DNA of 35,319 nt from Draconibacterium orientale (lineage in GTDB: Bacteria > Bacteroidota > Bacteroidia > Bacteroidales > JAIFNL01), in the NCBI GenBank assembly GCA_022729915.1, contig DZBP01000012.1, positions 1 to 35,319 on the forward strand, given 5' to 3'. The stretch's first letter is position 1; each line of letters begins with the position of its first letter. A model generated the notes under the pieces. It had not been told where the DNA came from. It saw only the letters and a program-made list of their open reading frames with translations, and ran no database searches. The translations under genes and the position numbers were made by a program. This document shows positions 11,785 through 32,530 of the stretch, one piece after another.

Positions 11785-11824
11785 TTGAAAAATTTACTGT
11801 TTGCATGATAATTTGTCGTTTAAA

Positions 11825-11926
11825 TTATAATTTCCCAAATTTGGGTTAGGTATTAGCACCTTTCTTTTTTGTTCAGAAGGTTGCTTGAGTTTCACAGAGC
11901 CTAATCTCTCCACTCATCTTTATAAA
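11825..11926 (-). ncRNA. SAM-I (S-box) riboswitch controlling metY-metX-hom
   Basis: The minus strand follows the S-box consensus almost base for base: TTATAAAGATGAGTGGAGAG, then ATTAGGCTC, TGTGAAAC, TCAAGCAACC, and after a short P3 loop AAAGGTGCTAATACC. Visible helices are P1 (TTATAA at 11920-11925 with TTATAA at 11825-11830), P2 (outer GAG/CTC and inner GAG/CTC), P3 (CCTTC with GAAAGG) and P4 (CCCA-AATT-TGGG). The highly conserved GUGAAA and GCAACC core and the GGUGCUAAWACC strand that form the SAM pocket are intact. The location ahead of three methionine genes agrees. Confidence 0.95.
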
Positions 11927-12011
11927 TCAAACAAACTTTCTTTTGAAGGGAAAGAATATTTGAGGTAACTGAAATAAAACGATTAAATGATTTTCAATTT
12001 TATTTTCGCTA

Positions 12012-19567: not shown

Positions 19568-19801
19568 TTATATTTTGTAAATTTGTAAAAACTTTTTTTT
19601 AACAAACTGTTAAGTGATAATGAGAGAATACAATTTTAATTCAGTTGAATTTTAGATAGTTGTCTAAAAAAACAATAAATTTTTATTTATCTCTTTAGCT
19701 TTTATTAGTGTTTTTCAATTTTCAGTAATATACAATTAATACGCTTTTAACTAGAGTTTTATATATTTTTTGTTAAAGTAATAACATTCAATTAGTAGTT
19801 G

Positions 19802-21133
19802 ATGAAGTACAAGGTTTTAGCAGTAGATGATAATAAAATGATACTTTCAATTATACGGATTGCTTTTAAAGAGGAATCCCAAATTGAAATTTTTACTGCT
19901 TTAAATGGAGTGGAAGCTATTGAAATGGCAAAAGAATTAATGCCAGATATTATTTTAATGGATTTTGAAATGCCCGTTATGAATGGCATTGAGGCTCTAA
20001 TTTCATTAAAATCAAATTTTCATACAAAAGATATTCCGGTAATAATGATTACCGCCACACGAACATTAGCCGATGCGTTTTCTGCTGGCGCAATCGATTT
20101 TATCCACAAACCAATAGATAAATTAGAATTATTGGCAAGGGTAAAATCTACACTTTCGTTGTTTAAATTACTCAACGACGTAACTGCTCAGGCTGAGCAA
20201 CTTGAGTTGCAAGCGGCAAAAATTGAAGCTCAAAAATTTACTCTCGAAGCACAAAAAGAAGAGCTTGAAGAACAGAGAGATATGTTAGAGTCGCAACAAA
20301 TTTTACTTCTTGAGCAAACCAAAACCCTCGAAAATCAGAAAAAAGGGTTGGAGCAACAACAAAGACGCTTGCATTTCAAAACCTTAGAACTCGAAATTCA
20401 AAACCAAAAACTTGGCGATGCAAACAGGCGCTCAGATGAGTTGTTACTCAATATTTTACCTTACGAAGTAGCAGAACAGCTCAAAAATAAAGGTTATGTT
20501 GAGCCCAAACACTACAAACGAGTATCTGTATTATTCACTGATTTTAAAGGATTTACAAAAATTGCAGAGCAACTGACTTCGCGCGAAATAATTAAAGAAT
20601 TGGATATATGTTTTGAAAAATTTGATGAAATTATTGAACAACATTATATCGAAAAAATAAAAACAATAGGCGATTCGTACATGTGTGTAGGCGGTTTGCC
20701 TTTGCGAAACAAAAGTAATCCGATAGATGTAACTTTGGCAGGTTTGAAAATGCAAGAATTTATGGTTTCTTACAATCAATTAAAGCGTTCGCTTGGGCAG
20801 CCGGAATGGGATTTGCGTTTGGGAATTCACACTGGCGAAGTGATGGCTGGAGTTATTGGAAAGAAAAAATTTGCTTACGATATTTGGGGAGATACCGTAA
20901 ATACTGCTAGTCGAATGGAAAGCTCAGGAATGCAAGGACAAGTAAACGTTTCTGGAAACACTTACAAGTACATAAAACGTTTTTTTGATTGTACCTATCG
21001 AGGAAAAATTGAAGCGAAAAATAAAGGAATCATCGACATGTATTTTGTAAATGGCTTAAAACCAGAGTTTTCGTTAAATGGTTCGCCCACAACACCCAAC
21101 CAAGATTTCTTGGAAGTTTTGTCAACTATTTAG
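19802..21133 (+). CDS. Response regulator-adenylate cyclase (REC, coiled coil, class III cyclase)
   Basis: I use the ATG at 19802 (443 residues); the overlapping TTG at 19799 adds one residue. Residues 1-122 are a complete receiver: acidic pair D9/D10, phospho-acceptor D54, T84 and K103. Residues about 125-215 are a Gln/Glu/Leu-rich coiled coil (QKEELEEQRDMLESQQ), then RRSDELLLNILPYEVAEQLK, the linker typical of class III cyclases. The catalytic domain holds both metal aspartates (D247 in LFTDFKGF, D291 in IGDSYM) and the purine-specifying K287 and D360 (YDIWGD). The transition-state N367 and R371 are in TVNTASRMES. Lys plus Asp indicates ATP, so the product should be cyclic AMP, made in the cytoplasm on phosphorylation by an unlinked kinase. 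No histidine kinase is adjacent. Confidence 0.93.
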   Translation: MKYKVLAVDDNKMILSIIRIAFKEESQIEIFTALNGVEAIEMAKELMPDIILMDFEMPVMNGIEALISLKSNFHTKDIPVIMITATRTLADAFSAGAIDFIHKPIDKLELLARVKSTLSLFKLLNDVTAQAEQLELQAAKIEAQKFTLEAQKEELEEQRDMLESQQILLLEQTKTLENQKKGLEQQQRRLHFKTLELEIQNQKLGDANRRSDELLLNILPYEVAEQLKNKGYVEPKHYKRVSVLFTDFKGFTKIAEQLTSREIIKELDICFEKFDEIIEQHYIEKIKTIGDSYMCVGGLPLRNKSNPIDVTLAGLKMQEFMVSYNQLKRSLGQPEWDLRLGIHTGEVMAGVIGKKKFAYDIWGDTVNTASRMESSGMQGQVNVSGNTYKYIKRFFDCTYRGKIEAKNKGIIDMYFVNGLKPEFSLNGSPTTPNQDFLEVLSTI

Positions 21134-21536
21134 TTTATTATTGTTATTTTTTTGTATTTTTGTTGCGAAAAAAAGGTTAATTGATTATATTTTTTATTGA
21201 TTATTCAAAATATATAGAGCAAGTACTTCTATTTTGGTCTGAAAATTGCAAAAAACATAACTAAATTACTATAAATCCGCAAGTCGCCGTATCAATTTGT
21301 TTAGAAACAGATTGTTAATGATTAATTTGTGCACATTTTGCAAAAAAAAATTACGATGTCTATCATTTTTTTTATAGACATCATTTTTTTTAAGGTTACT
21401 CCATATAAATTGAATAAATATTGAATTTTATTTTAATTGGTTAAAATAGAGTTGGACGCATTTTTCGTATTATTTGAATAAAGTTTGCTCAAAATTTGTA
21501 AAAGTAGTTTTTTATTTGGTTAATTATTTAAGCACA
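21134..21536. other. Intergenic region between cyclase and class I aminotransferase
   Basis: 403 bp without a supportable gene. The only clear element is a terminator hairpin at 21355-21390. A -7-like TATTTTTG at 21155-21162 lacks a well-placed TTG. Confidence 0.5.
21355..21390 (+). terminator. Intrinsic terminator after the cyclase gene
   Basis: Perfect 9-bp stem GATGTCTAT (21355-21363) with ATAGACATC (21374-21382), loop CATTTTTTTT, tail ATTTTTTTT. It is 220 nt past the cyclase stop codon, so the cyclase mRNA would have a long 3' end unless another gene product lies there. Confidence 0.75.
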
Positions 21537-22706
21537 ATGGAATCATTAATAAGCATTATGTCTGGCAAAGTGAAGGCACATGGTGGAATAAATTTGGCGC
21601 AAGGTATTCCTGGATTTGAACCACCTGTACAGCTTTTAGATATACTTAGTAAATTGGCGAACAAGGAAATACATCAATATGCGCCCGCGCTTGGCAATGC
21701 TCAATTGGCAAAAAGTATTTTGGATAAATACTCATTATTTGGCGCATTTCAACCCGAAAATTTGCTCATTACAAACGGTGCAACAGAAGCTATAAGTTTG
21801 ATATACACATATCTGAATAGAAAGCATAACAAACTTACTGTTTTGGGCTTTGACCCTGTGTACGAGACTTATAGTAATTTACCAAAAATATTTGGAGATG
21901 AGTTTATTGCTTTTTCTTTAGATGAGAATTTAAAAATAGATTTCGAAAAATTGACACAAACAATTACGGAAAAAAAAGTAAACTTAATTTTTCTAAATAC
22001 ACCCGGAAATCCATTAGGTAAAATTTGGACAAAACTAGAACTTGAAAACTTAATCGAAATAATTGAGAAATACAATATTTATCTAATAATTGATGCGGTA
22101 TATCGCGAAATTTATTTCAAAACCGAACCATACATTCCATTTGAACATTTTTCCGAAAAAATATTTTATGTAAATAGTTTTTCGAAATTATTTTCCATAA
22201 CTGGTTGGCGTTTAGGATATTTACTAATTCATTCCTCACATTATCAGCAAATAAGAGCAATTCACGATTACATTGGTTTGTGTGCCAATTCAGTGATGCA
22301 ACAAGCTGTTTATGAGTATATTAATGTAAGTAATTTTGGGAAAAATTATGTTGAAAAGCTCAGAGAAAAAATAACTAATTCGTATACTATTTTATACGAT
22401 TCATTATTAGAATTTGGATTTGAAAATGTGCCAGTTGAAGGTGGGTATTTTATTTGGACCAAACTGCCAGAAATTTATAAAAGCGGATACGATTTTGCAA
22501 TGGAATTATTTGAAAAAGAGAAACTTGCTGTTGTTCCTGGCGAACATTTTTCCTCGAATGGAAAGCAATATATTCGTATAAATATAGCTAGAAATTTACC
22601 GGAAATATACAAAGCAATAGCAGCTTTAAAACATTTTTTTGCAGATAATTCTGAAGCTACTCGACTGTTTAAACGACTGACTTCAGCAAAAGCATGCCAT
22701 TGTTAA
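21537..22706 (+). CDS. Class I/II PLP-dependent aminotransferase
   Basis: The ATG at 21537 gives 389 residues and a normal start (MESLISIMSGKVKAHGGINL); the longer frame from a TTG at 21474 adds 21 residues that do not look conserved. Fold type I landmarks: NLAQGIPGFEPP, HQYAPALGNAQL, ITNGATEAI (cofactor phosphate), FLNTPGNPLGKIW, IIDAVYREI (Asp and Tyr) and NSFSKLFSITGWRLGY with the PLP lysine. C-terminal IRINIARN supplies the carboxylate-binding Arg. It resembles methionine/kynurenine aminotransferases (YbdL-like) more than aspartate aminotransferases, because of LAQGIPGFEPP and GWRLGY, but the amino acid cannot be decided here. It follows the cyclase terminator and precedes the LytTR pair by 70 bp with no obvious terminator between them, so read-through into the regulators is possible. 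Confidence 0.88.
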   Translation: MESLISIMSGKVKAHGGINLAQGIPGFEPPVQLLDILSKLANKEIHQYAPALGNAQLAKSILDKYSLFGAFQPENLLITNGATEAISLIYTYLNRKHNKLTVLGFDPVYETYSNLPKIFGDEFIAFSLDENLKIDFEKLTQTITEKKVNLIFLNTPGNPLGKIWTKLELENLIEIIEKYNIYLIIDAVYREIYFKTEPYIPFEHFSEKIFYVNSFSKLFSITGWRLGYLLIHSSHYQQIRAIHDYIGLCANSVMQQAVYEYINVSNFGKNYVEKLREKITNSYTILYDSLLEFGFENVPVEGGYFIWTKLPEIYKSGYDFAMELFEKEKLAVVPGEHFSSNGKQYIRINIARNLPEIYKAIAALKHFFADNSEATRLFKRLTSAKACHC

Positions 22707-22776
22707 ATTTTTAAGTTTTTTTTAGAAACATAATTATACTTTTTGCGTATCAAAGTGTAATTTAAAAAACGGAATT

Positions 22777-23568
22777 GTGAAATTACTCAAAGTTATAATA
22801 GTTGACGACGATGATGACCATATTTTAATGTTGCAACAACATTTATTAATGGCTGATCCGGGAATAAAAATTGTAGCAACTGCCGAAAATATTACAGATG
22901 CATATAGTGCTATTCTTGCTTTTAGACCGGATTTAGTTTTTTTAGATATTGAAATGCCCAATGGAAACGGCATTGAACTTGCTAAACGTTTGCGCATCAA
23001 TAGAATAAGTGTGAAAATTGTTATCATTTCAGGAAAACAAGATTATGCCATTGAAGCAATTAAAGTTTCGGTTTTTGATTATTTAGTAAAGCCGTATAAT
23101 CCTGAAGAACTTAAAACGATATTAAATAAAACAAAACTCGATGATTCTTTAATTAATTTAAGTCGTCAGCGCACGATACTTTTTTCTTCTTTTTTCGAGA
23201 AATTAAGTTTCGATGCCGACGCACTTACGTCTTATTATATTCAACCCGACGAAGTTATTTATATTAAAGTTCTGGATTTAAAACATATACAATTTTACGT
23301 AACTTGGCAAGACGAACCCATTACTGTTCACGGAACTGTAACAGATATACGTAGAAGACTTCCTTACGTAATTTTTGCTAAAATAGCATTTCGAACATTT
23401 ATCAACATGAAATATCTTTCTAAAATATCGAATGAAAGCCATAAATGTTTTTTAAATTATAAGGGAAGACTTATTGCTCTCCAAGGGCAAGATAATTATT
23501 TGCATATGCTTAAGCAAATGATTTCGAAAAAAAAGGAAAAAACTAAAAACAATGAATTCGATATATAA
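22777..23568 (+). CDS. LytTR-family response regulator with canonical receiver
   Basis: 263 residues from a GTG start at 22777; I see no nearby ATG in frame. Residues 1-120 form a receiver with all active-site residues: D10/D11 in VIIVDDDDDH, phospho-acceptor D57 in LVFLDIEMPNG, S85 and K105 in YLVKPYNP. The C-terminal part (about 150-250) is a LytTR-type DNA-binding domain, though rather divergent: PDEVIYIKVLDLKHIQFYV, then FAKIAFRTFINMKYLSKIS, the segment that follows the usual RCHRSF(L/I)VN box. LytTR proteins bind pairs of short direct repeats. The next gene overlaps by 17 bp and encodes a second protein of the same kind. The partner kinase is not in the window. Likely targets are the repeats at 24586-24613 and 25130-25157, by inference only. 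Confidence 0.9.
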   Translation: MKLLKVIIVDDDDDHILMLQQHLLMADPGIKIVATAENITDAYSAILAFRPDLVFLDIEMPNGNGIELAKRLRINRISVKIVIISGKQDYAIEAIKVSVFDYLVKPYNPEELKTILNKTKLDDSLINLSRQRTILFSSFFEKLSFDADALTSYYIQPDEVIYIKVLDLKHIQFYVTWQDEPITVHGTVTDIRRRLPYVIFAKIAFRTFINMKYLSKISNESHKCFLNYKGRLIALQGQDNYLHMLKQMISKKKEKTKNNEFDI

Positions 23569-24274
23569 AACAATAATAGTAGATAAAAATCAAGATGGCA
23601 TTAACGAGATTGATGCATATTTGAGGAACTTCAAAGAATTAAAAATCATTCTTAGGACTACTTCAGTTGAAGAGGCTATTGATATTTCGTTGCTTAAAAA
23701 ACCGGATATTATTGTTGCAGAAATTGAGCTTGGTAATAGTAAAGCTTTCGAAATTTTTGACTCGTTACGCTCCATTAACTTTTATCCGGGCATTGTTTTT
23801 GTTGCAAAAACTGATGCTTTTGCTTTACGAGCTATAAAATATAGACCTTATGCTTATGTTTTGAGACCTTTTGACGACAAAATATTACGTGCTGCAGTTT
23901 ACCGAATTATTGGAAATGTTAGTCCTATAATTGATGAGCAAATTATGGTAAACAGCAAAGAAGGTGATGTGTTTATTAAAATAAAAGACATTGTTTATTG
24001 CAAAGCACAAAACTCTGGCACTACCTTGTATTTATCTAAAGGCACTCACTATCATGTATCATCTGGATTTAATGATTTAATGGACAATTTTTATGTTTAC
24101 AATTTTTTTAAATGTCATCGTTCGTTTCTTATTAACCTCGATTACTTAAAAAAAACAGAACGTAGAAAATCTCTTTCTTTTGGTATATTAAGTAAAGATG
24201 ATGAGATTTTTGAAGTGAAATTTTCCGATGTAGGAATGAAAGATTTGAAAAAAAAGACTACTAATACAAAATAA
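23552..24274 (+). CDS. LytTR-family regulator with degenerate (pseudo-)receiver
   Basis: 240 residues, overlapping the preceding regulator by 17 bp, so translation is probably coupled. Its receiver aligns without gaps to that of its neighbour around the active site, but key residues are changed. The phospho-acceptor Asp is Glu57 (IIVAEIEL), the second acidic residue is Lys12 (IIVDKNQD), the Ser/Thr is Ala85 (VFVAKTD) and the switch Lys is Arg105 (YVLRPFDD). The LytTR domain (about 130-235) is, by contrast, standard: IKIKDIVYCKAQNSGTTLYL, FFKCHRSFLINLDYLKK. It thus should bind DNA but not be switched by ordinary phosphorylation. Glu in place of Asp often mimics the active state, so it may be constitutively active or act as a heterodimer partner of the canonical regulator. 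The last two points are inference. Confidence 0.9.
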   Translation: MNSIYKTIIVDKNQDGINEIDAYLRNFKELKIILRTTSVEEAIDISLLKKPDIIVAEIELGNSKAFEIFDSLRSINFYPGIVFVAKTDAFALRAIKYRPYAYVLRPFDDKILRAAVYRIIGNVSPIIDEQIMVNSKEGDVFIKIKDIVYCKAQNSGTTLYLSKGTHYHVSSGFNDLMDNFYVYNFFKCHRSFLINLDYLKKTERRKSLSFGILSKDDEIFEVKFSDVGMKDLKKKTTNTK

Positions 24275-24522
24275 TTAAGCAGTAAACTAATAAATTGTAT
24301 GTTTTGTTTATCTAAACACTTGTAATTTAGTTGATTATATAAAGATTTGCTCCAATAAAAAAAGCAGAAGTGCTTAAAATTGAGCATATTATTTTGAATT
24401 TGTTTATTCATTTAAGTTTTTATAACCAAAATTTATTCTCGCGAAAAGAATAACTCTAATAATATTGTTGAAATTTTCTTCAAAACATTTTTTTTAGCCT
24501 TAATTACATTGCTAAATATCCA

Positions 24523-24705
24523 ATTTTTGCTATTTTATGCAAAAAAGCCAAAAATGGAAATGTTAAAATTATCCGAATATTGGACTTTCGACCCCCAAAA
24601 ACAGCATTTCGACTTTTTTCTGGAAAAAAATATACAAACTATTTTTTTGTGTATTTATATTTGTACTATATGTTAAGGCATTCGTAAAAGTCGTCTTCAC
24701 ACTTT
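24523..24705 (+). repeat. Repeat block, copy 1 (control region plus 5' part of candidate RNA)
   Basis: It aligns with 25067-25249. From 24523 to 24663 the two copies run without a net gap: hairpin TTTTTGC...GCAAAAA, then GCCAAAAATGGAAATGTTAA, two TTTCGAC boxes and TATATTTG. The similarity continues into GGCATTCGTAAA and GTCTTCACAC past the expected start site, then ends. Confidence 0.9.
24586..24663 (+). promoter_or_regulatory. Promoter and paired direct-repeat site of candidate RNA 1
   Basis: TTTCGAC at 24586-24592 and again at 24607-24613 (21-bp period), then 42 bp to TATATTTG at 24656-24663. The -7 element is perfect, but no TTG stands at the 17-20 nt position, as expected for an activator-dependent promoter. 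The identical geometry recurs in copy 2. Confidence 0.6.
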
Positions 24706-24867
24706 CTTTAGTCTATTTTATATTACCATTAAAACACAAAATATTACCTATTACACAAAAAAAACTTTATAAATTTACATCGAAAGTAAAAACACTAGTG
24801 GGTTATTAAATTTAAACTAATTTTGAGTAACATACTTTAGCTGTGAAGCTGTAGTATGTTTTTTTTT
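24668..24867 (+). ncRNA. Candidate small RNA 1 of a tandem pair
   Basis: About 200 nt from the expected start after TATATTTG (24656-24663) to a terminator with T8 tail. The longest ORF after an ATG is five codons, so it is unlikely to be a messenger. The 5' part (GGCATTCGTAAAAGTCGTCTT region, 24676-24702) and a 12-mer AATTTTGAGTAA just before the terminator (24819-24830) are shared with the second unit. The middle is divergent and A/T-rich. I do not recognise it as 6S, tmRNA, RNase P or SRP RNA. The exact 5' end is approximate. Confidence 0.55.
24830..24867 (+). terminator. Intrinsic terminator of candidate RNA 1
   Basis: Stem ACATACT (24830-24836) with AGTATGT (24853-24859), an internal TT/GT step, inner stem AGCT/AGCT, loop GTGA, then eight T residues. 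Confidence 0.85.
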
Positions 24868-25066
24868 GTTAAAAATCTAAATTAATTTCAAAATGGTGTT
24901 CTTAGAATTTATTTTTCAGAAAATGGGTAGTACCATGAAACTAACCAAATACTGAAAATGGTTATTTTCTTAATTAAACAAGTCCACGAAAAAAATAGCC
25001 GTTTTATAGTTAGCTAATAAAGGTTATAGTGAAGGATTCTGAAGTCTGAAAAACATTAAATTTCTT

Positions 25067-25249
25067 TTTTTTGCTATTTTTAGCAAAAAAGCCAAAAATG
25101 GAAATGTTAAAATTAACCGAATTTTGGACTTTCGACCCCAAAAAACGACTTTTCGACTTTTTTTTGAAAAAAAAATAAACGAATTATTTTTTTTGAATTT
25201 ATATTTGTACTTATAAATTTAGGCATTCGTAAAGTTGTCTTCACACCTT
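25067..25249 (+). repeat. Repeat block, copy 2 (control region plus 5' part of candidate RNA)
   Basis: It aligns with 24523-24705. The leading hairpin is longer here (TTTTTTGCTA with TAGCAAAAAA), with the stem retained despite base changes. Both TTTCGAC boxes and TATATTTG lie exactly 544 bp from their copy-1 counterparts. Confidence 0.9.
25130..25207 (+). promoter_or_regulatory. Promoter and paired direct-repeat site of candidate RNA 2
   Basis: TTTCGAC at 25130-25136 and 25151-25157 (21-bp period), 42 bp, then TATATTTG at 25200-25207. The 14 bases between the boxes have diverged from copy 1 but kept their length, which points to selection on spacing. Confidence 0.6.
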
Positions 25250-25425
25250 TATAGAGTTTAAATTTTATGCTTAATTTGTCTAATATTTAAATACCAATAT
25301 AGAAATCTAAACTTAAAACAATATATCCTTCACGCTAAAAAATCACTTGTACATAAAGCAATCAGACAAAATTTTGAGTAATTAATTTTAAGATGTTGCA
25401 GCCGGGAGGCTGCAATATTTATTTT
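25212..25425 (+). ncRNA. Candidate small RNA 2 of a tandem pair
   Basis: About 210 nt between the -7 element at 25200-25207 and an intrinsic terminator. It shares with unit 1 the leader GGCATTCGTAAAG (25222-25234), GTCTTCACAC (25237-25246) and the pre-terminator 12-mer AATTTTGAGTAA (25370-25381). The body and terminator stem are different. Its longest ATG-initiated ORF is seven codons. Two related units with conserved control and divergent bodies are what tandem regulatory RNAs show; function unknown. Confidence 0.55.
25393..25425 (+). terminator. Intrinsic terminator of candidate RNA 2
   Basis: GC-rich stem TTGCAGCC (25396-25403) with GGCTGCAA (25408-25415), extended by three A-T/G-U pairs, loop GGGA, followed by TTTATTTT. 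Confidence 0.82.
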
Positions 25426-25775: not shown

Positions 25776-27134
25776 ATGTTTTCAAGTACATATAAACGAC
25801 ATTTCAAGCGAACAGTTACATTGGCTTTGCCAGTTGCTTTAGGACAAGTAGGGCACATGATGACAAGTTTTGCTGATGCCGTAATGGTAGGTCACATAGG
25901 CAGTGTAGAATTAGCAGCCGTTTCGTTGGCAGGAAGCCTTATAATTATTCCTACCTTGTTGCTTGTAGGCATAAGTATAGGTTTAACTCCCTTAGTTGGA
26001 AAAGCTTTTGGACAAGAAAATATTGAAAAAATAAATCGGTATTTTTACCATGGTTTGGCTTTAAATTTCTTATTGAGTATTTTGCTAAGTATTCTAGTCT
26101 ATTTATCGGTACCTTATTTAGAATTACTCGAGCAAGAAAAGGAAGTTTTAGAGAAAAGTATTCCATACTTTCTGGTAATGATTTTTTCATTGATTCCTTA
26201 TTCTTTCATGTTTACGGCGAAGCAATTTACTGAAGGTATTGCACTTACAAAGCCCGGAATGTATATTAGTATTTTGGGAAATTTATTAAACGTGGGGTTA
26301 AATTATTTACTTATTTATGGTAAATTTGGATTTCCAGAATTAGGTGTTTTAGGAGCCGGAATTGCTAGTTTTATAGCACGTGCTTTTATGGGAATTGGCT
26401 TCATTGTATATATTTTTTATAAAACCAACATAAATAAATACATAAAATTTGATATTAAAAAGCGGTTAGAATTACATAAATTTATCGAAATATTTAAAAT
26501 TGGTTTGCCTATAGGAGTACAATTTACACTCGAAGTTGGAGTTTTTTCTGTAGGAGCTATAATGATAGGTTGGTTTGGGAGTAATGCTTTGGCTGCCCAT
26601 CAAATAGCATTAAATTATGCGGCATTAACATTTGTAATGGCGAGTGGTTTTGCCACAGCTTCTACCATACGAGTGAGCAATTTAATTGGGCAGCGAAAAT
26701 TACGCGAAATGCGTTTGGCGGGCTTTGCAAGTATGATGCTGGTATTCGGATTTATGGCATTTACCGCATTAGTTTTTATTCTTTTTCGGTTTTATTTGCC
26801 ATTTTTATTCACCACCGACCAAAATGTGGTGAATGAAGCAGCAAAATTATTGCTAGTAGCGGCTATTTTTCAGGTATTTGATGGAATACAAGTAGTAGGA
26901 TTAGGTAATTTGCGAGGTATGGCAGATGTAAAATATCCTACTTATGTGGTATTGTTTTCGTATTGGTTTATAGGCGTTCCTGCGTGTTATTTATTTGGTG
27001 TATATTTTAATTTTGGCGCGCCTGGAGTTTGGATTGGTTATTTGTTGGGCTTAGGCACAGCAGCAATTTTCTTCACAATTCGTTTTGCTCAAAAAAGTAA
27101 AGAGGCAATTCAAAAAATTAGATTGTTTGTTTAA
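25776..27134 (+). CDS. MATE-family multidrug/sodium (or proton) antiporter
   Basis: 452 residues with twelve hydrophobic segments in two homologous halves, as in NorM. The N-terminal half opens with LALPVALGQVGHMMTSFADAVMVGHIGSVELAAVSL, a clear MATE signature (aspartate in the first bundle), and LTPLVGKAFGQEN. The second half has GLPIGVQFTLEVGVFSVGAIMIGWFGSNALAAHQIALN and ATASTIRVSNLIGQ. The family exports cationic drugs or metabolites in exchange for Na+ or H+ across the inner membrane; the coupling ion and cargo cannot be read here. The start is fixed because an ATG four bases earlier, in another frame, is closed after seven codons. The lytic transglycosylase gene starts 19 bp after its stop codon, suggesting one transcript from the promoter at 25588. 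Confidence 0.95.
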   Translation: MFSSTYKRHFKRTVTLALPVALGQVGHMMTSFADAVMVGHIGSVELAAVSLAGSLIIIPTLLLVGISIGLTPLVGKAFGQENIEKINRYFYHGLALNFLLSILLSILVYLSVPYLELLEQEKEVLEKSIPYFLVMIFSLIPYSFMFTAKQFTEGIALTKPGMYISILGNLLNVGLNYLLIYGKFGFPELGVLGAGIASFIARAFMGIGFIVYIFYKTNINKYIKFDIKKRLELHKFIEIFKIGLPIGVQFTLEVGVFSVGAIMIGWFGSNALAAHQIALNYAALTFVMASGFATASTIRVSNLIGQRKLREMRLAGFASMMLVFGFMAFTALVFILFRFYLPFLFTTDQNVVNEAAKLLLVAAIFQVFDGIQVVGLGNLRGMADVKYPTYVVLFSYWFIGVPACYLFGVYFNFGAPGVWIGYLLGLGTAAIFFTIRFAQKSKEAIQKIRLFV

Positions 27135-28636: not shown

Positions 28637-31600
28637 ATGAAGCGATTACAACTTATAATATTTTTAATTTTAATTGGTTTTCAAAGCTTTTCGCAAGTAC
28701 CAGATTTATTTAAATATCAGGCACTTATACGCGACAACGAAGGCTCAATATTGTCTCAAGAAACCGTAAATATACGAACTAGCATAATTAGTGGAAATTT
28801 TGATGGAGTAACTGTGTATTCAGAAACTCATTTGTGCATAACCAATCCTTTTGGGCTAGTAAATTTAAATATTGGAGGCGGATTGGTCGAATTTGGTAAT
28901 TTCGGGTCAATTGATTGGGGAAGTAGCACACATTTTCTGAAATTGGAAGTAGATAGAAATGGAGGCGAAAATTTTGAGTATTTAGGGATAAGCCAATTAT
29001 TATCAGTTCCTTATGCTTTATTTGCAAAGCGCACTGGCGAAATTAATAAGGATAATGACCCTGAAAACGAACTTCAAAATCTAACTTATTCAAATGGTAA
29101 TTTAACTATTTCAAAAGGAAATTCTGTTTTTATTGATATAAATGATGGCGATTCAGATGCAACCAATGAAATAATAACAAGAGTTTCGTTACAAGGTAGT
29201 GTTTTGGAAATTGAAGAAGGTAATGAATTAAAAACCATTGATTTAGCTAATTTAGCTGCAATACAATCTCTTTCTTTTGACCGCGAAAATAAAATCTTGT
29301 ACCTCGAAAATGGTGGAAGTGTCAATTTGAGTTTATTGTACAACGATTCCGATTCTGTTTCTACTAATGAACTGATTTCCAATTTTATATTAGATGGAAC
29401 AAGCTTGAAAATTACAGAAGGAGGAGTTTTAAAGACTGTAGATTTAGCTATTTTAGCAGATAATCAAAGTTTGATATATGACCCTGAAAATAAGATACTT
29501 AAAATTGACGGTGGAAATCAAGTAAACTTGTCGGATTTGATTAACGATGCTGATGCAAATCCCACAAATGAATTACAAACACTAAGTTTTTCGGGCTCCA
29601 CACTTACCATTAGCAACGGAAATACCGTAAATATTGAAAGTTCGTTAGCGCTTTCTGATACCGATGGTGATACAAAAATAGTAGTTGAGGAGCATGAAAA
29701 TGATAATATTTTAAGATTCTATTCAAATGGCATCGAGCTTTTTAGAGTAGGCAAGGAGGCGGTGATTGAATTTCTTACAACTAATACACGAGTAGGAAAT
29801 TCTGCCGGAAAACTTATTACAATCGGTAATTTAAATACTTTGTTGGGTTACATGAGTGGAAATAAATTAACAACTGGAAGTTCAAATACTTTAATTGGTT
29901 CAAATTCAGGCGAAAACAGTGCAACATCTAGTTTCAATACTTTTGTAGGTTCAAACTCTGGAAAATTTAATACAACGGGGAATAACAATTTTTTTGGAGC
30001 TTCTAATAGTGGATTTTCTAATATAAACGGACAATACAATACGTTTTTGGGAAGTGAAAGTGGATTTCTCAATACAAGTGGAAGTAATAATGTATTTATA
30101 GGTTATAAGTCTGGAAATGAGAATATTGTAGCATCTGGAAACACATTTTCAGGAAGTTATAGTGGAGCAAAAAATACCGGAATATATAATAGTTTTTTTG
30201 GTTTTGAAGCGGGATTTAATACCTTGGGTAATTACAATACTTTTGTTGGAACAAAAAGCGGATATTCTAATAAGAATTCGGCTCAAAATACTTTTTTAGG
30301 ATATAATTCTGGATATTTTAATACCATAGGTAGCGAAAATGTATTTATTGGAAATGAAAGTGGTTTCTCGAATACTACATCATCTGGAAATGTTTTTTTA
30401 GGAGCCTCGAGTGGATATTCTAATGAAAATGGGCTATTCAATACATATTTGGGTTACTCATCTGGCAAGATGAATACATCATCGTCCAACACTTATGTGG
30501 GTTACGAAAGTGGTTTGTTAAATTTAGGAAGCGAAAATGTTTTCGTAGGAAAACAAGTTTCAACCGTTAATTCACAAGCGTCTCATAATGTGTATGTGGG
30601 TAATTATGTTGCAAAAAGTAATTTAGGAAATGAAAATGTTTCAATAGGTTTAAATTCAGCTAGTTTGGCTCAAGATGCTTCCCAAAATACATTTTTAGGT
30701 TTTGCTAGTGGCTTTAGCACGTTAGGCAATAGTAATGTTTTTATTGGCTATAAATCTGGATATTATGAATTAAATTCAAATAAATTATATATTGAAAATT
30801 CGGATTCAGATTTGCCGCTTATTTATGGTGAATTTGATAATGATTTAATTCAGTTTAACGCAAAAGTTGGTATAAATACTTTACCCTCAGAAGCTTTAAC
30901 AGTAAATGGAGCAATAAAAATCTCGAATACATTAAGTCAAAATGAGGGAACAATTCGTTTCAACGGAACAAATTTTCAAGGATTTGATGGTACAAGTTGG
31001 CTTCGTTTAGATTTGCAACAAGTTTCTAATATGTCTGATGCTGATGCAACTACGGGTATTTTTGCAGAACAAACTACAAATGATAATCAGCTACGTTTTT
31101 TTACAAACAATACTGAACGTTTGATTATTACTGAAAATGGAACTTTTGATTTGAAAGGAACAAATTTCTTTATTGGAGAGCAAAGTGGTTTGAAAAATAC
31201 GTTAGGAAATGAAAATATTTATTTGGGTTATTTATCAGGTAGTGAAAATACAGAAGGAAATAGAAATTTGGCGATGGGGCACTTTGCTGGTTCTAGTTTA
31301 GTATTAGGAAATGAAAATATATTTTTAGGTAATTTGTCTGCTTACAATCAATACGAAGGAAACAAAAATACTTTTTTGGGTTTTGCAAGTGGATATAGTT
31401 CAATATCAGGAAGTTCAAATGTATTCATTGGATATGAAGCTGGATATTTTGAAACCGAATCGAATAAATTGTATATTCAAAATTCAAAAATAAATACGCC
31501 TTTAATTTATGGTGATTTTGATACGCATGAGCTCATTTTTGATGCAAATGTTTCAATTGGTAATACTTTAGCTGTCGAAAAACTAGATGTAGATGGTGCT

Positions 31601-32530
31601 ATAAAATTGGCAAATACTTTTTTACAGAACGAGGGAACAATTCGCTGGACGGGCTTAAATTTTGAAGGTTATACAGGTAGTGAATGGAAAGTGCTTGATC
31701 ATCAGTATTTTGATAAAATTAGAACTGCTTCAAATTCTACTTCTTTTGCTATATCAAATTCATCAGGAACATATTTTAATTATATAATTGATAATGAATT
31801 GTTTTTGAAAATATCAAAATCTAAATTAGAACTTTTTGGAAATGATATTTTTATAGGTGAAGAAGCTGGTAAAATGAAGACTTCCGCAGATAAAAATATT
31901 TTTATAGGCTATAAAAGTGGAAGTAGTACACAATCAGGTTCAAACAACGTATTTTTGGGCTACCAAAGTGGTATTTTAAATTCTTCAGGAAGCGATAATG
32001 TATTTTTAGGTTTTAGGTCGGGGAATAAAAATACTTTAGGAAAACAAAATACTTTTTTAGGTTTTCAAAGCGGGCATGATAATTCAGCTGGTGAAGACAA
32101 CGTTTTTTTAGGTTATAATAGTGGCTATTTCAGCATTTTAAATAACCAAAACGTTTTTGTAGGTAGTTATAGTGGCTATCAAAATCAATCATCGCACAAT
32201 GTATTTATTGGAATGAATTCCGGAAGAAATAATCTTTCGGGGAGTGGCAACGTTTTTGTAGGAAACAATGCCGGAATGAATGAAGTTGGTTCTAATAAAT
32301 TGTATATCAGTAATTCAGAAACAGCCGAACCACTTATTGCAGGCGATTTTGCTAGTAAAGAACTTACAGTAAACAATAAATTAAATGTGAAGGAAGTTTT
32401 ACATTTAACTCCTTTATCATCAGCTCCTTCTAATCCTAAAGTTGGTGATTTGTATATGGGCACTGATGATAAATTGTATATTTTTGTTAGTACAAATGGA
32501 GGTGAATGGAAAGCTGTAGCTTTTCAATAG
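28637..32530 (+). CDS. Large secreted repeat protein with three left-handed beta-roll (YadA-head-like) arrays
   Basis: 1297 residues. Signal peptide MKRLQLIIFLILIGFQSFSQ. Residues about 21-135 are the Bacteroidota N-terminal domain FKYQALIRDNEG...SETHLCITNPFGLVNLNIGGG...LLSVPYALFAK. About 140-360 hold four units of the form DxDxxxTNEL...SLxGSxLxIxEG. Three arrays of the 14-17-residue repeat N-(T/V)-F-(L/I/V)-G-x-x-(S/A)-G follow: about 20 copies (382-712), 6 (843-940) and 9 (1070-1217). Each array ends in a module starting SNKLYIxNS...PLIYGxFD; the first two continue with VNGAIKISNTLSQNEGTIR-type segments. The protein ends KLYIFVSTNGGEWKAVAFQ; I see neither a T9SS sorting domain nor an autotransporter barrel. 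Surface adhesin or fibre role is inferred from the YadA-like repeat. Confidence 0.85.
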   Translation: MKRLQLIIFLILIGFQSFSQVPDLFKYQALIRDNEGSILSQETVNIRTSIISGNFDGVTVYSETHLCITNPFGLVNLNIGGGLVEFGNFGSIDWGSSTHFLKLEVDRNGGENFEYLGISQLLSVPYALFAKRTGEINKDNDPENELQNLTYSNGNLTISKGNSVFIDINDGDSDATNEIITRVSLQGSVLEIEEGNELKTIDLANLAAIQSLSFDRENKILYLENGGSVNLSLLYNDSDSVSTNELISNFILDGTSLKITEGGVLKTVDLAILADNQSLIYDPENKILKIDGGNQVNLSDLINDADANPTNELQTLSFSGSTLTISNGNTVNIESSLALSDTDGDTKIVVEEHENDNILRFYSNGIELFRVGKEAVIEFLTTNTRVGNSAGKLITIGNLNTLLGYMSGNKLTTGSSNTLIGSNSGENSATSSFNTFVGSNSGKFNTTGNNNFFGASNSGFSNINGQYNTFLGSESGFLNTSGSNNVFIGYKSGNENIVASGNTFSGSYSGAKNTGIYNSFFGFEAGFNTLGNYNTFVGTKSGYSNKNSAQNTFLGYNSGYFNTIGSENVFIGNESGFSNTTSSGNVFLGASSGYSNENGLFNTYLGYSSGKMNTSSSNTYVGYESGLLNLGSENVFVGKQVSTVNSQASHNVYVGNYVAKSNLGNENVSIGLNSASLAQDASQNTFLGFASGFSTLGNSNVFIGYKSGYYELNSNKLYIENSDSDLPLIYGEFDNDLIQFNAKVGINTLPSEALTVNGAIKISNTLSQNEGTIRFNGTNFQGFDGTSWLRLDLQQVSNMSDADATTGIFAEQTTNDNQLRFFTNNTERLIITENGTFDLKGTNFFIGEQSGLKNTLGNENIYLGYLSGSENTEGNRNLAMGHFAGSSLVLGNENIFLGNLSAYNQYEGNKNTFLGFASGYSSISGSSNVFIGYEAGYFETESNKLYIQNSKINTPLIYGDFDTHELIFDANVSIGNTLAVEKLDVDGAIKLANTFLQNEGTIRWTGLNFEGYTGSEWKVLDHQYFDKIRTASNSTSFAISNSSGTYFNYIIDNELFLKISKSKLELFGNDIFIGEEAGKMKTSADKNIFIGYKSGSSTQSGSNNVFLGYQSGILNSSGSDNVFLGFRSGNKNTLGKQNTFLGFQSGHDNSAGEDNVFLGYNSGYFSILNNQNVFVGSYSGYQNQSSHNVFIGMNSGRNNLSGSGNVFVGNNAGMNEVGSNKLYISNSETAEPLIAGDFASKELTVNNKLNVKEVLHLTPLSSAPSNPKVGDLYMGTDDKLYIFVSTNGGEWKAVAFQ

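Follow-up and report, generated by a model that had tools for sequence, protein, structure and literature searches.

Two tandem candidate small RNA genes of a probable new family, apparently under a LytTR switch, in an uncultured member of the Bacteroidota

What do two related blocks of apparently non-coding DNA beside a pair of regulator genes encode, and what switches them on? The question is raised by a stretch of 35,319 nucleotides (hereafter the window) listed under Draconibacterium orientale (GenBank assembly GCA_022729915.1, contig DZBP01000012.1; our contig C251), which belongs to an uncultured Bacteroidota assembly of 3.5 Mb that is 83% complete (G000). Both blocks are placed between a LytTR-type response regulator pair (22777-23568 and 23552-24274) and the gene for a MatE transporter (25776-27134). 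The original prediction, made from this DNA without database searches, was of two duplicated regulatory RNAs. For comparison we used a genus-level set made up of this genome, its sister species Bacteroidetes bacterium bin_9 (G001; JAIFNL010000119.1; 97% complete) and a third member (G002); the remaining relatives compared are different at the family level. The feature is confirmed, and the blocks are probably two small RNA (sRNA) genes that form a new RNA family controlled by a LytTR switch, their status as RNA genes being something that we infer from sequence. With a probability of roughly 0.62, they would encode paralogous non-coding sRNAs that are switched on by the adjacent LytTR regulator and act by base-pairing.

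Each unit is built in the same order: a -7 box (TATATTTG), a common leader of 25-26 nt (GGCATTCGTAAA...GTCTTCACAC in both copies), an unrelated body, a common 12-mer and a terminator hairpin. The shared promoter element, leader and 12-mer are all where the original prediction had placed them. A search of the genome recovered the second copy with E 6e-57 and found no third, and positions 24513-24667 and 25057-25211 are 84% identical. The repeat proposed earlier is therefore real, but its single 544-bp offset is not, as the distance between the copies grows from 544 bp upstream to 545 where the leader begins and 551 by the 12-mer. Identity between the copies reaches 87% across the approximately 164 bases 5' of the leader and 96% in the leader itself; besides the leader, the strongest conservation lies in the approximately 150 bp 5' of the -7 box. 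In agreement with the proposal of conserved ends around a divergent body, the two bodies resemble each other no more than shuffled sequence would (z 0.5). When the Bacteroidota -7 box is set at -12 to -5 (PMC9723704), the predicted starts fall at 24668 and 25212, as first proposed, and the RNAs would be approximately 199 and 213 nt long. The parts of the two units are:

24513-24655, + strand: upstream control region conserved in copy 1, with 84-87% identity to copy 2 and 72% to the sister species
24586-24592, + strand: copy 1 half-site 1, TTTCGAC, of a 21-bp direct repeat
24607-24613, + strand: copy 1 half-site 2, TTTCGAC, starting 49 bp 5' of the -7 box
24656-24663, + strand: copy 1 -7 box TATATTTG (consensus TAnnTTTG), predicted start 24668
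24668-24867, + strand: candidate sRNA 1, ~199 nt, with promoter, leader, 12-mer and terminator and no open reading frame (ORF) of at least 8 codons
24677-24702, + strand: leader of sRNA 1, matching copy 2 and the sister species at 24/25 positions
24819-24830, + strand: 12-mer AATTTTGAGTAA of sRNA 1, identical in copy 2 and the sister species
24831-24867, + strand: terminator hairpin and U-tract of sRNA 1, from folding (helices mean P 0.96-0.97) and compensatory changes
25057-25199, + strand: copy 2 conserved upstream control region, from copy-to-copy identity
25130-25136, + strand: copy 2 half-site 1, TTTCGAC, of a 21-bp direct repeat
25151-25157, + strand: copy 2 half-site 2, TTTCGAC, starting 49 bp 5' of the -7 box
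25200-25207, + strand: copy 2 -7 box TATATTTG, predicted start 25212
25212-25425, + strand: candidate sRNA 2, ~213 nt, ancestral-type copy, with full-length similarity to the sister species and fold z -2.9
25222-25246, + strand: leader of sRNA 2, 25/25 identical to the sister species
25370-25381, + strand: 12-mer AATTTTGAGTAA of sRNA 2, 12/12 identical to the sister species
25391-25425, + strand: terminator hairpin of sRNA 2, 13-bp stem with a weak U-tract (mean P 0.98)

The two terminator stems had been thought completely different in sequence, and this proved wrong. They align with a common AGC.G.GA.GCTG core, standard pairs occupy 92% of the cells, and three stem pairs are altered on both sides, that is, in a compensatory way. 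The U-tract of copy 2 is weak, and a strict terminator scan calls neither. The units hold no conserved ORF, as expected from the lack of coding potential first reported.

The sister species keeps one unit, 3' of the orthologous LytTR gene (the protein LytTR2, described below, is 67% identical), and so provides a homologue in the same context. The LytTR gene is 71% identical in DNA between the two genomes, as against 25/25 in the leader and 12/12 in the 12-mer for copy 2. Similarity of the sister RNA to copy 2 extends through the body (z 6.7) and the terminator (z 11), and its body bears no resemblance to that of copy 1 (z -0.3). As the sister RNA matches copy 2, body included, copy 1 appears to be a paralog that kept its switch and had its body replaced. 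Copy 2 would then be the ancestral RNA, and copy 1 a duplicate in which switch and ends were retained. Upstream, the two copies are nevertheless 87% identical to each other, compared with 78% and 72% to the sister species; the history may have been either a recent duplication in the lineage of the window, with body replacement in copy 1, or the homogenization of the promoters by gene conversion. No second copy was found elsewhere in the sister genome, although contig C271 ends shortly 3' of its unit and leaves room for one.

The unit is rare. Across 344 genomes of the order it was found in these two species only; other matches, in 72 further genomes, had per-genome E values above 5e-5 and, being this weak, were taken as AT-rich noise. 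A scan of the genome collection with the leader pattern returned only the sister species and a chance match inside a Desulfobacterales coding gene, a scan of that collection with the LytTR protein gave no matches, and the unit had no matches in viral contigs, plasmids or phages. As a separate observation, the third genus member carries a piece of the conserved upstream block (ATGTTAAAATT, at L080:11136) 3' of its LytTR pair, without the direct repeats.

The original prediction was right to place related non-coding units beside a LytTR pair, but it left the conserved upstream region uninterpreted. This block holds TTTCGAC-N14-TTTCGAC followed by T6, or in general form TTTCRAC-N14-TTTCRAC, with a period of exactly 21 bp. 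When up to three mismatches were allowed, the three genus members together contained four perfect sites: the two window copies, the sRNA unit of the sister species (C271) and one further site in that species (C225). All the remaining matches carry three mismatches and stand at control level, as do matches to the repeat pattern with other spacing. At every perfect site (4/4) the second half-site begins 48-49 bp 5' of a -7-like box, which is TATATTTG at the RNA units and TACTTTTA at C225. Furthermore, the half-sites read CGAC in 4/4 cases in the window genome and CAAC in 4/4 cases in the sister species, and this joint change of both half-sites points to one trans-acting protein. In copy 1 they occupy -82 to -76 and -61 to -55 relative to the predicted start; lying 5' of the polymerase contact, they are positioned as for an activator. 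On inspection, TTTG is absent at -33 from both window copies, and the sister species has GTTG there. LytTR sites are paired 9-bp direct repeats separated by 10-13 bp, and LytTR activators mostly bind 5' of -35 (PMC11347149). The direct repeat has the geometry of such a site, and geometry and position together argue strongly, if indirectly, for a link between the element and LytTR. A CRISPR repeat-like element was considered separately and rejected: TTTCRACCCC is scattered in the window and sister genomes with no regular array, and of its matches only the elements and one close to a tRNA fall outside ORFs.

The presumed activator is the second protein of the pair:

22777-23568, + strand: LytTR1 response regulator; Response_reg is the sole Pfam match, and the NCBIfam LytR model spans protein positions 5-247
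23552-24274, + strand: LytTR2 response regulator; Pfam LytTR E 4e-13 (49.9 bits against a cut-off of 22.6), with a match to ComE in PDB

LytTR1 has an intact receiver with the phospho-acceptor Asp kept, and a degenerate LytTR-like C-terminus without the HRS motif or a Pfam LytTR match. LytTR2 has a degenerate receiver and an intact LytTR DNA-binding domain with CHRSFLIN; in the alignment its phospho-acceptor column holds Glu in the window and sister species and Gln in the third genus member. A division of labour, in which LytTR1 senses and LytTR2 binds, is possible. No kinase was found among the neighbour genes scanned. The gene order receiver-cyclase, aminotransferase, LytTR1, LytTR2 (19799-24274) is common to 3/3 genus members. 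In the mechanism that we propose, a LytTR dimer would bind the pair of TTTCRAC half-sites, which are separated by two turns of the helix, and sit just 5' of the sigma-A promoter, where it would recruit RNA polymerase. The sequence itself establishes the two units, the site with its geometry, co-variation and rarity, and the lack of coding; expression, direct LytTR binding, activation and base-pairing are inferred from it.

Could another protein bind the repeat? The RNAs would then be real and under joint control, but of a regulator whose gene lies elsewhere, such as a WYL protein or another DNA-binding protein, and the LytTR genes would be mere neighbours. The further site in the sister species (G001:C225:14660-14693) lends this some weight, because it lies on a separate contig, 5' of an ORF (L115:6781-7137) that runs into the contig end after 119 codons and is probably a fragment of Cas10/Csm1 from a type III CRISPR system. 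Cas10/Csm1 is the sole NCBIfam match of this ORF, in N-terminal register, with E 7e-4 and a score far under the full-length cut-off, as is expected for a fragment; searches of the bin for the Csm1 and Csm3 families recovered no further part of the cas10 locus. A WYL-domain gene stands approximately 1.8 kb from the start of this probable csm1, and the third genus member has a LytTR pair without the site. However, the repeat matches LytTR sites in spacing, in its upstream location and in its TTTCA core, the unit lies 3' of the LytTR gene in 2/2 species, and FasA offers the precedent of a LytTR-type regulator thought to act at no promoter but that of the sRNA encoded in its locus (PMC12675982). 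On balance, we consider control by an unlinked regulator rather unlikely and prefer the adjacent LytTR protein.

How the RNAs act is a second matter. Folding is more stable than in shuffled sequence for copy 2 (z -2.9) and the sister RNA (z -3.6), compared with z -0.6 for copy 1. A 5' hairpin is common to the copy 2 and sister RNAs and presents part of the conserved GUCUUCAC close to its tip; its outer 3' arm has been lost from copy 1. A long-range helix between the start of the body and the 12-mer, reached by 1/300 shuffles for copy 2 and 35/300 for copy 1, is favoured in copy 2 but absent in the sister species and is therefore not claimed. A test for pairing of the leader with mRNAs had been proposed, and here our search pointed to no target: the 10-mer complementary to the leader occurs only in the RNAs themselves. 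The common 5' leader and 3' 12-mer may confer stability or engage a partner or target common to both RNAs, while the body would set the individual targets of each RNA. Pairing by the body is suggested by the general behaviour of such RNAs, by analogy.

A protein decoy is also possible, in which the transcripts titrate a protein through the leader or the 12-mer and the body is a mere spacer. That the ends are the conserved parts, that no complementary target is enriched and that the copy 1 body has nothing in common with that of copy 2 would all suit a decoy. Yet the copy 2 body is still recognizable in the sister species and so is not free to drift there, and no known decoy motif or Rfam family was found; we therefore hold a decoy to be unlikely and base-pairing the better account. 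Non-functional remains of a repeat or mobile element are very unlikely: the DNA is intergenic, AT-rich and tandemly duplicated, but the leader and 12-mer are invariant between species that differ by ~30% in the neighbouring gene, the half-sites co-change, and further copies are lacking in the genome as well as in phages, plasmids and viral contigs. Finally, 6S RNA or another known housekeeping RNA, which an AT-rich Bacteroidota RNA of ~200 nt with a hairpin end might recall, is hardly credible given the dedicated activator-type promoter, the two copies with unrelated bodies and the Rfam search, where at gathering and relaxed thresholds no family reached a gathering score or a meaningful E-value, in keeping with the original view that no named family fits.

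Several observations weigh against LytTR-controlled, base-pairing sRNAs. In the third genus member the LytTR pair is present (LytTR2 35% identical) with neither RNA unit nor site there, and the unit is carried by two species only. The element is assigned to LytTR from proximity and geometry. No secondary structure beyond the terminator is proven common, the long-range helix not being conserved. The 8-mer complementary to the leader core (GTGAAGAC) is not enriched in either genome, falling below its control, and so indicates no target. The lack of a conserved Asp in LytTR2, and of a kinase among the neighbours scanned, is another matter: phosphorylation on such an Asp by a cognate kinase is typical of these regulators but not universal, and its lack weakens the case for a classical two-component system, not that for LytTR control.

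That the RNAs and a type III CRISPR gene are controlled together is a lead rather than a result. More speculatively, a LytTR regulator with a phospho-mimic Glu, together with its Asp-bearing partner, might run a tiny regulon centred on RNA, in which the duplicated sRNAs have bodies that can be exchanged and which in the sister species also takes in a type III CRISPR effector gene, the RNAs acting in, or being timed with, anti-phage defence; we think this doubtful.

Elsewhere in the window, an ordinary SAM riboswitch (11822-11928, - strand; Rfam RF00162, 75.5 bits) lies 5' of probable methionine biosynthesis genes, and 28637-32530 encodes a protein of 1297 aa, probably a surface protein, with numerous degenerate repeats of the type N-x-F-x-G-x-x-S-G-x-x-N.

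This work predicts a controlling protein for two sRNAs in a phylum whose regulation by sRNAs is little understood and which has no obvious Hfq. The proposed regulon is minimal, has an exact site and can be tested. The two copies, equal in switch and ends and different in body, amount to a natural experiment on how an sRNA gains targets, and the occurrence of the site 5' of a probable cas10 in the sister species raises the possibility that defence is involved.

A LytTR regulator with its own sRNA is an arrangement known in Firmicutes (FasA-FasX, RgaR-SpoZ), and the locus is thus less unprecedented than the original prediction implied; for Bacteroidota, we found no report in a limited search of the open-licence literature, which is limited evidence of absence. 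In Clostridium perfringens, VR-RNA is an sRNA target of VirR, whose regulon, unlike the one proposed here, is wider and includes protein genes. In the FasBCA-FasX system of Streptococcus pyogenes, the locus of a LytTR/ComE-like response regulator includes the sRNA that it activates, from a proposed binding site 5' of -35 (PMC12675982). However, FasX is a single RNA and FasA is phosphorylated at D60 by FasBC, whereas the window has two RNAs, no adjacent kinase seen and Glu in place of Asp; the likeness is one of arrangement. In Clostridioides difficile, VirR-like direct repeats 21 bp apart stand 5' of the sRNA SpoZ, and the critical Gs for RgaR at the spoZ promoter are at -51 and -72 (PMC10602386); this system is from a Firmicute, and SpoZ is one of five listed RgaR targets and is not duplicated. 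The E. coli LytTR protein YpdB recognizes repeats (GGCATTTCAT) that are likewise 21 bp apart in the probe oligo and share the TTTCA core with the half-site of the sister species, and its D53E form is constitutively active (PMC4847170), but its target yhjX is a protein gene and not an RNA. Among Bacteroidota sRNAs, GibS and Rfp18 are similarly intergenic and AT-rich, with TAnnTTTG promoters and no obvious Hfq (PMC7366714, PMC9723704); in the parts of these sources consulted no LytTR link is described, and the comparison is one of general features. On the best reading, by analogy, the locus would work like FasA-FasX and RgaR-SpoZ, and would differ from them in its phylum, its duplicated RNA with a replaced body and its degenerate receiver.
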